Below are positions 21,882 through 29,798 of a stretch of 36,290 bases of DNA, piece by piece. Positions within the stretch are counted from its first letter, which is position 1. Each line of letters opens with the position of its first letter. The notes beneath the pieces were generated by a model. That model did not search any database and was not told the origin of the DNA. It saw only the letters and a list, made by a program, of their open reading frames with translations. The stretch is from Devosia insulae DS-56. GTDB lineage: Bacteria; Pseudomonadota; Alphaproteobacteria; Rhizobiales; Devosiaceae. The position numbers were made by a program, and so were the translations under genes. The stretch covers positions 1 to 36,290 of the forward strand of contig NZ_LAJE02000292.1 in assembly GCF_000970465.2 (NCBI RefSeq), given 5' to 3'.

Positions 21882-22127
21882 GTGAAGCAGATGCAGGCCC
21901 GCGAGGCCAAGGCCAAGTTCGCTGAGTTGTTGCATAGCGCAGAACAGGGAGAGCCTATCACAATCACTCGCCATGGCACTCCCGTGGCAATGATCGTGCC
22001 TTTCGCCAAAGGCGAGGAGATGTATTCCCTAGAGGCTAATCGCACCTTCATTGAGCATTTGCTGGCTTTTCCGGGACCGCTCGAAGTCGACAAGGACCGC
22101 AGGCCGCCGCGTGAGATTGAGCTTTGA
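21882..22127 (+). CDS. Phd/YefM-family antitoxin
   Basis: An 81-residue antitoxin of the prevent-host-death group. The N-terminal half has the family pattern: MQAREAKAKFAELLHSAEQGEPITITRHG followed by PVAMIVPF, the fold that dimerises and binds operator DNA. The acidic/proline C-terminal tail (about 50-81) should wrap the toxin. The GTG at 21882 is chosen because GGAGG lies seven bases upstream; the ATG three codons later is possible. The end overlaps the toxin start by four bases (TTGA), implying coupled translation. The pair lies between zapE and mdh, which are usually neighbours, so it is probably an insertion. Confidence 0.9.
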   Translation: MKQMQAREAKAKFAELLHSAEQGEPITITRHGTPVAMIVPFAKGEEMYSLEANRTFIEHLLAFPGPLEVDKDRRPPREIEL

Positions 22128-22570
22128 CGACGCAGTACCTGCTCGATACCTCGGTCGTGTCGTCAATCGCGCCGGGTCGTGCCGGTATGGACGAGGGCTT
22201 TCTCAACTGGCTGATCGTCACGCTGCCGCGCACACACATGTCGAGTGTCAGCGTCTTTGAGATCGAGCAGGGCATCTGCAAGCTTGAGCGCGCCGGAGCC
22301 CGGGCCCGCGCGGAAGTGATGCGTCAGTGGCTGGGGCGCCTGCTCGAGCAATTCAACGGCACCCGCATGCTACCCATGGATGCGGAAGTCGCCCGCGAGG
22401 CCGGCCGGCTTTCAGACTGGGCCCTCGCTCGAGGAGTGCACCCGGGTACGGCGGATATCATGATAGCCGCAACGGCCACGACCCACGGCCTGGTGCTGCT
22501 GACGCATAACCTGAAGCACTTCGTCCCGTTGGAGATCGACGCGATCGACCCCTCCACGCTGCCCGGCTAG
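22124..22570 (+). CDS. PIN-domain VapC-like toxin
   Basis: A 148-residue PIN-domain ribonuclease toxin; relatives cleave tRNA or other RNA when freed from antitoxin. The first acidic residue is Asp8 (YLLDTSVVS), the second Glu46 (VFEIEQG), and the third Asp111 in the HPGTADIMIAATA helix. The closing strand reads LLTHNLKHF, with His where many VapCs have the fourth acidic residue; this also occurs in FitB-like members, so activity is not excluded. The TTG start overlaps the antitoxin stop. The 3' end overlaps the convergent zapE end by four bases. Confidence 0.9.
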   Translation: MTTQYLLDTSVVSSIAPGRAGMDEGFLNWLIVTLPRTHMSSVSVFEIEQGICKLERAGARARAEVMRQWLGRLLEQFNGTRMLPMDAEVAREAGRLSDWALARGVHPGTADIMIAATATTHGLVLLTHNLKHFVPLEIDAIDPSTLPG

Positions 22571-23716: not shown

Positions 23717-24337
23717 CTAGCCGACCATCGTGATGCCCTGGCCGCCGGCCAAGGTACCGATGAACTGGCTGCCGCTGAGGATCAGCGAGGCGATGATGTC
23801 GCCATTCTCGTCGAACAGCTGCACCTGGTTGCCCACCAGCTGCCAGCTCGCCACGACCTTCAGCCCGTTGAGCCCGCAGCCCGGCGTCGAAGCCCGATAG
23901 CGCGAGGTGCCGGATTTCGCGGTCTGGGTCAGGTTGAGCTTGCACTGCTCGGCGCCCGACACCACGGTCCAGCCACCCAGCAGCTTTTCGACCGTCAGGC
24001 CGGTGGAGAGATCACGCCCCGAGGCCTGCGGCACCGATCCGAGGGTGGTGAACGACCCATCGGCATTGGCGACCTGCGCCGGCTGCCCGAGCTGGCCCGG
24101 CGCCGGTTGGCCGCCCGGGATCAGCGGCGCCGGCTCGCCGAGCGAGGCCTGCTGCACCGTGCTGCCCGGCAAGGCATTGAGGTCCGAGCTCGCCACCGAC
24201 GAATTCTGGATCGGGGTGAGGGTTTCACTCGAGGCGATGCTGGTCGCGGTCACGCCGCTCGAGGCGCAGCCGCTCAGAACGAGCGACAATGCACCCAGTA
24301 CGGCTATGGAAACGCCTGCGCGTCTCGAACTCATCAT
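23717..24337 (-). CDS. omp19: Outer-membrane lipoprotein Omp19 / AprI-Inh-domain protein
   Basis: A 206-residue lipoprotein with signal sequence and lipobox LSGC (Cys24), a long Ser/Pro/Gln/Ala-rich linker (about 25-110) and a C-terminal beta-barrel of the AprI/Inh protease-inhibitor type. That domain shows LLGGWTVVSGAEQCKLNL, ASTPGCGLNG, ASWQLVGNQVQLFDENG and the closing GGQGITMVG. Two cysteines in the domain should form a disulfide. The architecture and the end match Brucella Omp19, which inhibits host proteases; here protection from environmental proteases is the natural inference. The linker is longer than in Brucella. It precedes zapE, as in related genomes. Confidence 0.88.
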   Translation of the reverse strand: MMSSRRAGVSIAVLGALSLVLSGCASSGVTATSIASSETLTPIQNSSVASSDLNALPGSTVQQASLGEPAPLIPGGQPAPGQLGQPAQVANADGSFTTLGSVPQASGRDLSTGLTVEKLLGGWTVVSGAEQCKLNLTQTAKSGTSRYRASTPGCGLNGLKVVASWQLVGNQVQLFDENGDIIASLILSGSQFIGTLAGGQGITMVG

Positions 24338-26251: not shown

Positions 26252-26542
26252 TCAGTAGTTCGGCTTGCAGATCTGGTTCGATTTGGCGACGTAGGTGTTA
26301 TACGCCGCATACTGGCCTTCCGGTGGCGATTTGCCCTTCATCGAGGCGATGACCATGGCCATGAATTCCTCGTCGATCAGCGTCATCGCCGCGTCCGCCT
26401 TGCACGAACAGAGCGCATCGTCCGAAGCGATGCCCATGCAGGTCTTGTAGAAATCTGCCTTCTGCGCCTCGGTCGGCGCAGCCTGCGCCACGCTCGACAG
26501 CATCCCCAGCGCCAAGAGCGCCACCAAAACCCGCTTCATCAT
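26252..26542 (-). CDS. Small four-cysteine exported protein, function unknown
   Basis: A 96-residue protein starting MMKRVLVALLALGMLSSVAQA, a classical signal peptide probably cleaved after AQA. The mature part has C35-x9-C45-x-C47 and C92 near the end, the same layout as the neighbouring lipoprotein. The ATG at 26542 has GGGG six bases upstream; a GTG at 26560 overlapping the previous stop would spoil the signal peptide. It lies in the gene run between sdhA and sdhB. A role in respiratory-complex maturation or periplasmic redox is only a guess from position. Confidence 0.75.
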   Translation of the reverse strand: MMKRVLVALLALGMLSSVAQAAPTEAQKADFYKTCMGIASDDALCSCKADAAMTLIDEEFMAMVIASMKGKSPPEGQYAAYNTYVAKSNQICKPNY

Positions 26543-26556
26543 TCGCCCCGTCTCTC

Positions 26557-26985
26557 TCACCGCAATTCTTTGCGGATCATCAGTTTCAAACCCGACCAGA
26601 TTTCGCTGACCGCCGCCACCTTGATATCGACCAACCCGATCGGCAGCACCACCTCACGGATCACATCTTCGGTGATATCGGTCGGCACCTTTGAGGCCTT
26701 CTTCGGCCACGAAATCCAGATCACCCCATCACGAGTGATCGCCTCCAGCAGCGGCCGCGCATTGTCCTCGAGCACCCCGCGCGACGCGGTGAAGCCATGG
26801 ACGAAATCCCAGCCCTTGCTGCCGCGCCACGCATCCCACTGCGCATCGCGTACCTCGGCAAAGGCTCGCGCCGACCTCAGCTCCGCCAGCTCAACCGGCA
26901 ACGACAGAAACAGCACCCGCTGGCCGTCCTTGAGGCCGAGCTTTTTTGGCAGCGGAGTGCCGGAATAGCCAGCGGCGGCAGTCAC
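26557..26985 (-). CDS. DUF3052 family protein
   Basis: The 142-residue cytosolic protein shows the family's start, GYSGTPLPKKLGLKDGQRVLF, a middle region, and the end block WISWPKKASKVPTDITEDVI followed by REVVLPIGLVDIKVAAVSEIWSGLKLMIRK. The fold looks like a Rossmann-type methyltransferase remnant, but no activity is known. The GTG at 26985 is fixed by homology and overlaps the preceding stop (GTGA). An in-frame extension to 27105 would be Arg-rich and lie within the preceding gene, so it is rejected. Its first ~30 codons are duplicated at the start of the gene upstream. Confidence 0.88.
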   Translation of the reverse strand: MTAAAGYSGTPLPKKLGLKDGQRVLFLSLPVELAELRSARAFAEVRDAQWDAWRGSKGWDFVHGFTASRGVLEDNARPLLEAITRDGVIWISWPKKASKVPTDITEDVIREVVLPIGLVDIKVAAVSEIWSGLKLMIRKELR

Positions 26986-27542
26986 GGGCCCACCGTCCGA
27001 GAAAAGCGCCTCTCCTCCAACCATGCGCCGCCGCATCCACCGAGCGTAAGAACATTCTCTCTGATGTCGACGGTGCAGGTTGCGTCTCTGTCTCCAAACA
27101 GCCACCCGTCCGGGAAGTCGTATTCGTCGTGAACGTGTATGGACCGTCCGTCGAACGTGTAAGGCCCACTCGATTCCAGCCCTTCGTCGATACCGACGGT
27201 TACGGAATTGACTGTTCCCTTGGCATCAAAGCAGAGCTCGGCGTAGGGCAGCATCCCAATGAGTTCTTTGCCTGTCTCCGGGTCCACACCCCAGGACAAG
27301 CCTTCCTCTCCGGACGGCAGCGTTATGCGTGTGGCATTGCCGACGTCCTCCTCATAGTCGCGCCAACAGCCGACCAGCGCCGTCGCAATTTCCTCCTCGG
27401 AAGCAGGTCGCACCTCAGCTTCCGCCACCGCCGACCCTGACTGCAGGCTTAGGGCGACCGCAAAGGAGAGGACCCGCTGCCAAGTTCCTGGACCGAGCTG
27501 CCGCGGCAGCGGCGTGCCGGAATAGCCAGACGCCGCGGTCAA
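26982..27542 (-). CDS. Four-cysteine exported protein with DUF3052-derived start (paralog 2)
   Basis: A 186-residue protein. Residues 1-17 (TTG start, then TAASGYSGTPLPRQLG) are a copy of the DUF3052 N-terminus encoded next door, and the similarity continues weakly through QRVL (22-25). From there VLSFAVALSLQSGSAVA reads as a signal-peptide core ending near 40. The mature part (VRPASEEEIATALVGCW onward) is paralogous to the upstream gene, with cysteines 59, 104, 156 and 170 in the same order. The GxW-like start (LVGCW) and beta-rich pattern suggest a lipocalin-like barrel. The start overlaps the previous stop as TTGA. It looks like a product of tandem duplication. Confidence 0.75.
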   Translation of the reverse strand: MTAASGYSGTPLPRQLGPGTWQRVLSFAVALSLQSGSAVAEAEVRPASEEEIATALVGCWRDYEEDVGNATRITLPSGEEGLSWGVDPETGKELIGMLPYAELCFDAKGTVNSVTVGIDEGLESSGPYTFDGRSIHVHDEYDFPDGWLFGDRDATCTVDIRENVLTLGGCGGAWLEERRFSRTVGP

Positions 27543-27988
27543 TCGCGCACCTGCAAGCCGTAGCTCGAGTCAGGGATCGCCGTGTCGGCATCCTCTCCAA
27601 GCCCCACGCAGTTCAGCAATCGCATGGCGCGGCCCGGGCTCATGAGGACATCGCAATCGAGGTCGTTGACGTCAAAGGTCCAACCGTCGGAAGGCCCGGG
27701 TCCACGTAGCTGGAGCTTTCCAGCCGAGACTTCATAGGTGCCGGCGTCCTCAATTCCCTCATCGCCGCCGACCCAACCGGTAGAAACTACGCCGTCAGCC
27801 TCGAAACAGGCCGTCACAGTGTAAGGGATGCCCCAACTGGGCGCCTTTCGTTCGGCAAAGGTGCTTTCACGTTGCCAACACCCCACAAGTGAACGGGCTA
27901 TTTCCACCTCGGTGGCAGTGCGCACATCCATGGCAGCCGCACCGAATGAACTGGTCCCTAAAGCGGCAGTGACCAGAATCCACTTCAC
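27539..27988 (-). CDS. Four-cysteine exported protein (paralog 1)
   Basis: A 149-residue protein with an ordinary signal peptide (GTG start, then KWILVTAALGTSSFGAAA, cleavage near 19). The mature part has VRTATEVEIARSLVGCW (22-38) and cysteines at 37, 61, 112 and 127, matching the four of the next gene. Two disulfides and a small beta-barrel are likely; I recognise no named family. The GTG lies one base past the sdhA stop. Its stop overlaps the next gene's TTG. The signal peptide here differs from that of the second copy, which shows where the duplication breakpoint lies. Confidence 0.75.
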   Translation of the reverse strand: MKWILVTAALGTSSFGAAAMDVRTATEVEIARSLVGCWQRESTFAERKAPSWGIPYTVTACFEADGVVSTGWVGGDEGIEDAGTYEVSAGKLQLRGPGPSDGWTFDVNDLDCDVLMSPGRAMRLLNCVGLGEDADTAIPDSSYGLQVRD

Positions 27989-27989
27989 C

Positions 27990-29798
27990 TCAGTACACTC
28001 TCGCCTTCGGCGCGATCTTCTTCAGACTGATCCCGCCCTCGCTTTCCGGCGTCAGCGGGTCGACATGCACCGGCCGGTAGCCGAGGTCCACCTTGCCCGC
28101 ATCATTGATCCAGCTCAGCGTGTGCTTCCGCCAGTTCACGTCATCGCGGTTGGGGAAATCCTCGTGCGCGTGGGCGCCGCGGCTCTCGTGCCGGGCTTCG
28201 GCCGAGACCACCGTGGTCGCGGCGCAGGCCATCAGGTTCTCGAGTTCCAGTGTTTCCACCAGGTCCGAGTTCCAGATCATCGAGCGGTCGGAAACCTTGA
28301 GATCGCTGAGCTCGCCATAGAGCGCGGTGATGCGTTCGACGCCCGACTTCAGCGATTCCGAGGTGCGGAACACCGCTGCATCCTCCTGCATGATGCGCTG
28401 CATCCGGTCACGCACTTCAGCGGTCGGCGACGAGCCATTGGCATGCCGCAACCGGTCGAAGCGCGAGAGGATGCGCTCATCTTCCGAGGCGCGGGCCGCC
28501 GGCACCATCGAACCCTTGTCGACCACTTTGGCCGCCCGGAGCGCCGCGGCCCGGCCGAACACCACGAGGTCGGTCAGCGAGTTCGAGCCCAGCCGGTTGG
28601 CGCCGTGCACCGAGGCGCAGGCTGCTTCGCCCGCCGCCATCAGCCCCGCCACCACGCGGTCCGGATCGCCTTCGGTCGGATTCAGCACCTCGCCGTGATA
28701 GTTCGCGGGGATGCCGCCCATATTGTAGTGCACCGTCGGCAGCACCGGGATCGGCTCGCGCGTCAGGTCGACGCCGGCGAAGATCTTTGCCGATTCCGTG
28801 ATCCCCGGGAGCCGCTCATGCAGCACCTTCGGGTCGAGATGGTCGAGGTGAAGGAAGATGTGATCCTTCTTCGGCCCGACGCCGCGGCCCTCGCGGATCT
28901 CTATGGTCATGCAGCGGCTGACCACGTCGCGGCTCGCCAGATCCTTGGCGTTGGGCGCATAGCGCTCCATGAACCGCTCGCCCTCGGAATTGGTGAGGTA
29001 ACCACCCTCACCGCGCGCGCCCTCAGTAATCAGCACGCCCGCGCCATAGACGCCGGTGGGGTGGAACTGCACGAACTCCATGTCCTGCAGCGGCAGTCCG
29101 GCCCGCGCCACCATGCCGTTGCCGTCGCCGGTGCAGGTATGCGCCGAAGTCGCCGAGAAATACGCCCGGCCGTAGCCGCCGGTCGCCAGCACCACCAGCT
29201 TGGCGCGGAACCGATGCAGCGTGCCGTCATCGAGCTTCCAGGCCATCACGCCCTGGCACGAGCCATCGGCGCCCATGATCAGGTCGAGCGCAAAATACTC
29301 GATGAAGAACTGCGCGTTGTTCCGGAGGCTCTGCCCATAGAGCGTATGGAGAATGGCATGCCCGGTGCGGTCGGCCGCGGCGCAGGTGCGCTGCACCGGC
29401 GGGCCGTCGCCGAATTCCGTCATGTGGCCGCCGAACGGCCGCTGGTAGATGGTGCCCTTCTCGGTGCGCGAGAACGGCACGCCATAGTGCTCGAGCTCGT
29501 AGATCGCCGCCGGCGCCTCGCGCGCCAGGTACTCCATGGCGTCGTTGTCGCCCAGCCAGTCCGACCCCTTGACGGTGTCGTACATGTGCCACTGCCAGCT
29601 GTCGGGGCCCATATTGCCCAGCGACGCCGCGATGCCGCCTTGCGCCGCCACGGTATGCGAGCGGGTCGGGAAGACTTTGGTGATGCAGGCGGTGTTGAGC
29701 CCCTGCTCGGCCATGCCCAGCGTCGCGCGCAACCCGGCGCCGCCAGCACCGACAATGACCACGTCGAATTCGTGGTCGATGATCTCGTAAGCGGCCAT
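27990..29798 (-). CDS. sdhA: Succinate dehydrogenase flavoprotein subunit
   Basis: Oxidises succinate to fumarate with covalently bound FAD on the cytoplasmic side of the inner membrane. The 602-residue protein has the dinucleotide fold [12 protein letters not shown] (14-25), the FAD-linking His48 in [14 protein letters not shown] in the active-site region, and the late block [15 protein letters not shown] in the form [14 protein letters not shown]. Length is typical. It follows sdhD by 5 nt. The gene after it is a small exported protein, not sdhB. Confidence 0.98.

Follow-up and report, generated by a model that had tools for sequence, protein, structure and literature searches.

The start of a DUF3052-like gene at the front of a probably exported, lipocalin-like protein in a variable slot between sdhA and its neighbor in Devosia insulae DS-56

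How does a gene for a probably exported protein come to begin like the presumably cytosolic gene next door? This question is raised by a locus of Devosia insulae DS-56, within a stretch of 36,290 nucleotides (contig NZ_LAJE02000292.1) that is referred to here, at its full length, as the window. The gene order is sdhA, B, A, D, followed by two small genes ahead of sdhB, with the TTG start of A overlapping the stop of B and the GTG start of D overlapping the stop of A. A and B belong to one protein family, here called X, and the opening of A, LTAASGYSGTPLPRQLG, has its counterpart in the opening of D, VTAAAGYSGTPLPKKLG. The parts of the locus are as follows.

27990-29798, minus strand: sdhA, placed by ORF, gene order and the interval table; the variable slot is bounded on the left by its 3' end
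27539-27988, minus strand: gene B, an unfused X-family protein, lipocalin-like (AF2 model) and probably exported
26982-27542, minus strand: gene A, an X-family protein with a D-derived N-terminus
26557-26985, minus strand: gene D, DUF3052-like, of the family from which the D5' relic stems
27468-27542, minus strand: the D5' relic, A codons 1-25, homologous to D codons 1-25
26911-26985, minus strand: D codons 1-25, the counterpart of the relic
27417-27473, minus strand: A codons 24-42, VLSFAVALSLQSGSAVAEA, the putative hydrophobic core of a signal peptide together with its cleavage region (from hydropathy and an AF2 helix at 21-32)
26985-27416, minus strand: the predicted mature part of A, forming a lipocalin-like beta-barrel and containing the four conserved cysteines
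27520-28024, minus strand: tract common to the window and genome G014 (B plus borders)

The derivation of the start of A from a DUF3052-like gene, proposed in an earlier sequence-only reading of this DNA, is supported by local alignment of A with D, in which D nt 1-74 score 56, whereas 60 shuffles never exceed 23; with other scoring over the first 120 nt, the score is 34, where 500 shuffles reach at most 15. Ungapped, codons 1-25 share 51 of 75 nt, and the similarity stops at D nt 74, in agreement with the proposed breakpoint some 25 codons into the gene. The high nucleotide identity claimed for the shared start holds only in places, namely at codons 6-13 and 16-17, and the alignment needs small compensating gaps around codons 17-21. 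No ATG, GTG or TTG stands in frame from after codon 1 of A up to the hydrophobic core. The name DUF3052 is itself only approximate, because D resembles the Pfam family (PF11253; residues 79-138 matched) at 19.1 bits, short of the gathering cut-off of 22.7.

That A and B are paralogs with four matching cysteines proves correct: C37, C61, C112 and C127 of B each have a matching cysteine in A and do not vary across the 15 aligned X-family members, nor does the tryptophan following the first cysteine. AF2 models built on 15-row alignments (pLDDT 78 with 11 strands for A, 79 with 8 strands for B) fold each protein as an antiparallel beta-barrel after a short helix. With both, Foldseek returns lipocalin-like structures first, the best E values being 5.6e-4 for A (three matches at E 0.001 or below) and 1.0e-3 for B (no match at E 0.001 or better), and TM-scores on the query for the leading lipocalin-like hits are 0.38-0.40 for A and 0.50-0.54 for B. 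To the bacterial lipocalin-like proteins of PDB entries 4i95, 4gzv and 4iab, the predicted barrels are likened with a Foldseek probability of 1.00, but at only 13-18% identity and an rmsd over 6 Å. On these models, A and B may be small periplasmic or secreted ligand-binding barrels. Sequence searches of Pfam, NCBIfam, PADLOC and the PDB gave nothing convincing on function, and none of the 15 members had a Pfam match at E < 0.01. The best NCBIfam match, TIGR03066, was set aside (E 0.0076; 16.3 bits, far under the cut-off of 93.25), and for anti-phage defence the 15 members gave no convincing PADLOC match, four families giving weak hits in one member each (best E 0.015).

How widely is the fused start distributed? 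D is matched in 17 of 19 genomes of the genus and in 70 of 136 of the family at E 0.001, part of the latter only weakly, at 26-33% identity. The X family is sparser, its profile finding 16 places in 14 of the 136 family genomes, of which 15 were accepted as members; a match in G064 (E 0.016, one internal stop) was rejected since it overlaps a long ORF, which we take to be translation initiation factor IF-2. Far from all members carrying the fused N-terminus, an outcome considered with the sequence-only reading, just two of the 15 have it: A in the window and X2 of Devosia sp. Root413D1 (G011). A scan of 28 non-redundant sdhA-D intervals of at least 100 nt, each against the D5' of its own locus, gave clear relics in the same two places only, at D nt 1-74 in the window and D nt 15-76 in G011 (score 77, shuffle maximum 26), with no clear relic in the other 26. 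Thirteen loci repeating others were excluded from the scan and from the survey of slot contents, while L127 and L133, whose gene order differs so that sdhB falls inside the "interval", are counted both here and in the 64 loci of the spacing count below; the interval length of L056 is an overestimate, the end of sdhA being misplaced. Candidates in L058 (27 against a maximum of 25 in 60 shuffles) and L065 (25 against 23, 60 shuffles) were not accepted, each covering at most 17 nt of D.

A tree of 15 genus loci, built from the sdhA 3' end and downstream DNA, pairs the window with G011 as sisters (support 100/100) and places G010 and G014 next. Each of the latter two has a single X gene in the order sdhA-X-D, which is the two-gene state expected of relatives, and the fused start is therefore derived. 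It probably arose a single time, before the lineages of the window and G011 parted. The D of G011 itself (L048) has an unusual beginning, VDISSGYSG.

Spacing between sdhA and D is at most 40 nt in 57 of 64 loci (L083, L085-L147), mainly of Mesorhizobium and Maricaulis, and among the genus loci the slot is filled in 14/17 (about 0.3-2.6 kb) and empty in 3/17. The cargo varies, comprising X-family genes, Inh protease-inhibitor domains (in L066 and L080, two other loci tested), PIN-domain proteins with small partner ORFs, small cysteine-containing proteins and others; the slot protein of L050 is confirmed as PIN (E 2.1e-10). Judged by eye, the slots of L050, L055, L056, L057 and L058 appear to hold PIN-type proteins with small partner ORFs. 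An X-family gene also follows sdhA in L165 (G114) and L166 (G061), where a relative of the gene at window 26252-26560 and then sdhB come next; D was not found in these two 5-kb loci. Elsewhere in the window, an Inh protease-inhibitor domain (PF02974, E 9.2e-13) is present in the protein encoded at 23717-24337 (minus strand), and at 21882-22570 (plus strand) lie two adjoining ORFs that resemble a toxin-antitoxin pair with a toxin of the PIN type.

Although their flanks are 90-94% identical, G010 and G014 carry very different X genes, a sign that alleles are replaced in the slot generally. The sdhA-D gap is probably a recombination slot in this bacterial family, holding different small cargo genes in different species, and cargo would be exchanged by crossing over in two conserved stretches, the 3' end of sdhA and the 5' end of D. 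As a general rule this exchange is inferred; for B, comparing the window with G014, the exchanged tract itself is seen. The two B genes are 97.5% identical, with 11 differences in 449 nt as against 140/1809 in sdhA (Fisher p 2e-5) and 63/429 in D (p 2e-11), and at third codon positions B differs at 7/149 against 112/603 for sdhA. Because B is nearly identical between more diverged flanks, it has moved horizontally. On its upstream side, the final 35 nt of sdhA and the 75 nt that follow are free of mismatches; past B, a single difference occurs at 27537 (codon 2 of the A relic), and differences become dense from 27519 on (codon 8). As read from this identity tract, the exchanged piece is the B gene, with borders in the sdhA end and in D5'-like sequence. 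The start of A (TTG ACC GCG GCG TCT) resembles that of the D of G014 (TTG ACT GCG GCG TCT) and not that of the window's own D (GTG ACT GCC GCC GCT), which fits a crossover inside the relic. To judge from where the identity ends, then, the incoming B would later have used the relic as its landing site.

The reading that we favor, and on balance hold to be probable, is that of an sdhA-D slot using the 5' end of D as its right-hand homology arm, in which one non-homologous join left that arm fused in frame to a lipocalin-like X protein, the hydrophobic core being more likely X's own. In the lineage of the window and G011, one right-hand join would have been non-homologous, and the first ~25 codons of D would have been joined in frame to the start of a resident X gene. 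The resulting structure, sdhA-X-[D5']X'-D, is observed; the joining event is inferred. The D5' copy would supply A with its start codon, overlapping the stop of B, and with a ~23-residue n-region.

Much of the same structure would be expected had X and the 5' end of D simply been duplicated in tandem in the ancestor of the window and G011, the upstream copy being replaced afterwards by horizontally acquired alleles. Such a duplication predicts the same gene order, and the join in A does carry a partial copy of the downstream gene, a trait expected of tandem duplication of B and D5'. In BLASTP among the 15 members, moreover, the best match of X2 is X1 of its own genome (24%, E 6.5e-6), which fits an old tandem duplication in G011, and an AU test on the weak, long-branched X-family tree leaves all five groupings standing, among them A with B (p 0.445) and X1 with X2 (p 0.327). 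Against this stands the fact that the core of A is matched best by an unfused gene of another genus, G114_X, which lies directly 3' of sdhA (32.5%, E 6e-18), ahead of B (32.2%, E 1.7e-13), and that A shares with G114_X an insertion of ~20 residues absent in other members. B ranks in turn G014_B, then G063_X and G010_X, then A; and A and B are 32% identical, although the four species agree at 88-94% in their flanking DNA. With B a horizontally exchanged allele, the tandem duplication of the sequence-only reading is not upheld as a recent event, A being unlikely on sequence grounds to be a recent copy of B, and we regard the older duplication as unlikely too. Two independent fusions in the sister species, near the same codon of D, which would suggest a preferred breakpoint there, seem to us a little easier to credit, if still unlikely. 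Ungapped similarity stops at D nt 74 in the window and 76 in G011 with TCC as the next codon in both, and beyond it A and X2 have nothing detectable in common at the DNA level (p 0.9), so that a single origin needs later replacement of the body or fast divergence, and two events are possible. Likewise, among four D compared, the relic of X2 is nearest the D of G010 (64/75 nt, as opposed to 56/75 for its own D) and that of A nearest the D of G014 (55/75). Weighing against two events are the sister relationship, the identical codon after both junctions and the lack of a clear relic in the other intervals scanned. The shared leader and differing bodies of A and X2 suggest a further reading, which we consider doubtful: the first ~25 codons of D might serve again and again as a recombination arm and as a start of translation, by which cargo entering the slot is captured in frame.

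Where, then, did the hydrophobic core come from? The sequence-only reading had a DUF3052 strand reused as the signal-peptide core, that is, the hydrophobic strand after QRVL of D itself. Here the comparisons pull in two directions, and the proposal must be called improbable. In its favor, V24 and L25 of A align with D, the D of the window is the most hydrophobic at this point of four D profiled (2.03 against 1.16-1.23), and gapped local alignments (A with D14, X2 with D10/D11) run past codon 25 to D nt 88-89. There are also weak matches between A and D: p 0.017 at the DNA level for the core against its own D, p 0.048 and 0.084 at the protein level for residues 23-45 and 26-42 against window D, and p 0.003 each for rightward extension along the D of G005 and G006 (among 20 tests). 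X2 matches its own D at the protein level with p 0.038, as opposed to 0.29 for X1. None of these p values survives correction for multiple testing, however, and the p 0.017 match is non-collinear. Rightward extension of A along D is non-significant in 8 of 10 species (p 0.06-0.32), and for X2 no species of ten falls below p 0.05.

The N-terminus of G010_X matches A better, at p 0.0005 for residues 23-45 (protein level, partly via the mature EVR residues) and 0.016 for residues 26-42. X2 matches the signal peptide of X1 at the DNA level (p 0.001, 1000 shuffles), and all of the unfused X members compared possess their own hydrophobic N-terminus. At the DNA level, the core of A matches no X signal peptide (G010_X p 0.23), and leftward extension from EVR gives p 0.14 for G010_X, 1.0 for B and 0.26 for X1. 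Taken together, the core is more probably the X family's own than D's, and the pattern is suggestive of a division in which D gave A the start codon and n-region and the X gene would have given the core and cleavage site. If so, A is probably still exported, as a disulfide-bonded lipocalin-like barrel. AEA precedes the predicted mature start of A, and AF2 places a helix at residues 21-32 (pLDDT about 55); in X2, the core ends in VSAC, which we take to be a lipobox by consensus. Export is nonetheless not assured, since the hydropathy peak of A, 1.92 at residue 24, lies below that of the presumably cytosolic window D (2.03) and below those of 10 of 13 unfused X proteins.

The slot resembles known integration hotspots between core genes in its conserved flanks and differing cargo, with one cargo gene bearing clear marks of exchange. 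It differs in being small (about 0.3-2.6 kb) and inside the sdh operon, and in that a coding fragment of one flank has stayed behind, fused to cargo. In homology-facilitated illegitimate recombination, as described in PMC3240628, homology joins one end of the incoming DNA and non-homologous joining the other; the slot would similarly have had one homologous and one non-homologous end, though here the process is read from an old sequence outcome and not seen happening. Autotransporters, according to PMC2805444, have long signal peptides with N-terminal extensions. Like these, A carries additional residues ahead of a putative Sec-type core, but its extension is a recognizable fragment of a neighboring gene. 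No report of this gene arrangement was found among the literature matches listed.

With outgroups and a sister species at hand, the locus offers an example of a gene start, presumably cytosolic in origin, that came to head a probable export signal. It illustrates how cargo may be traded in an operon slot by way of homology arms, and how a join that fails can give rise to a chimeric gene that stays open. Were the leader of D reusable, repeated non-homologous joins would yield exported proteins in which the leader, taken from a cytosolic gene, is fixed and the body is interchangeable. If export of A is confirmed, a Sec signal would be seen to tolerate a foreign n-region of ~23 residues gained in one step.
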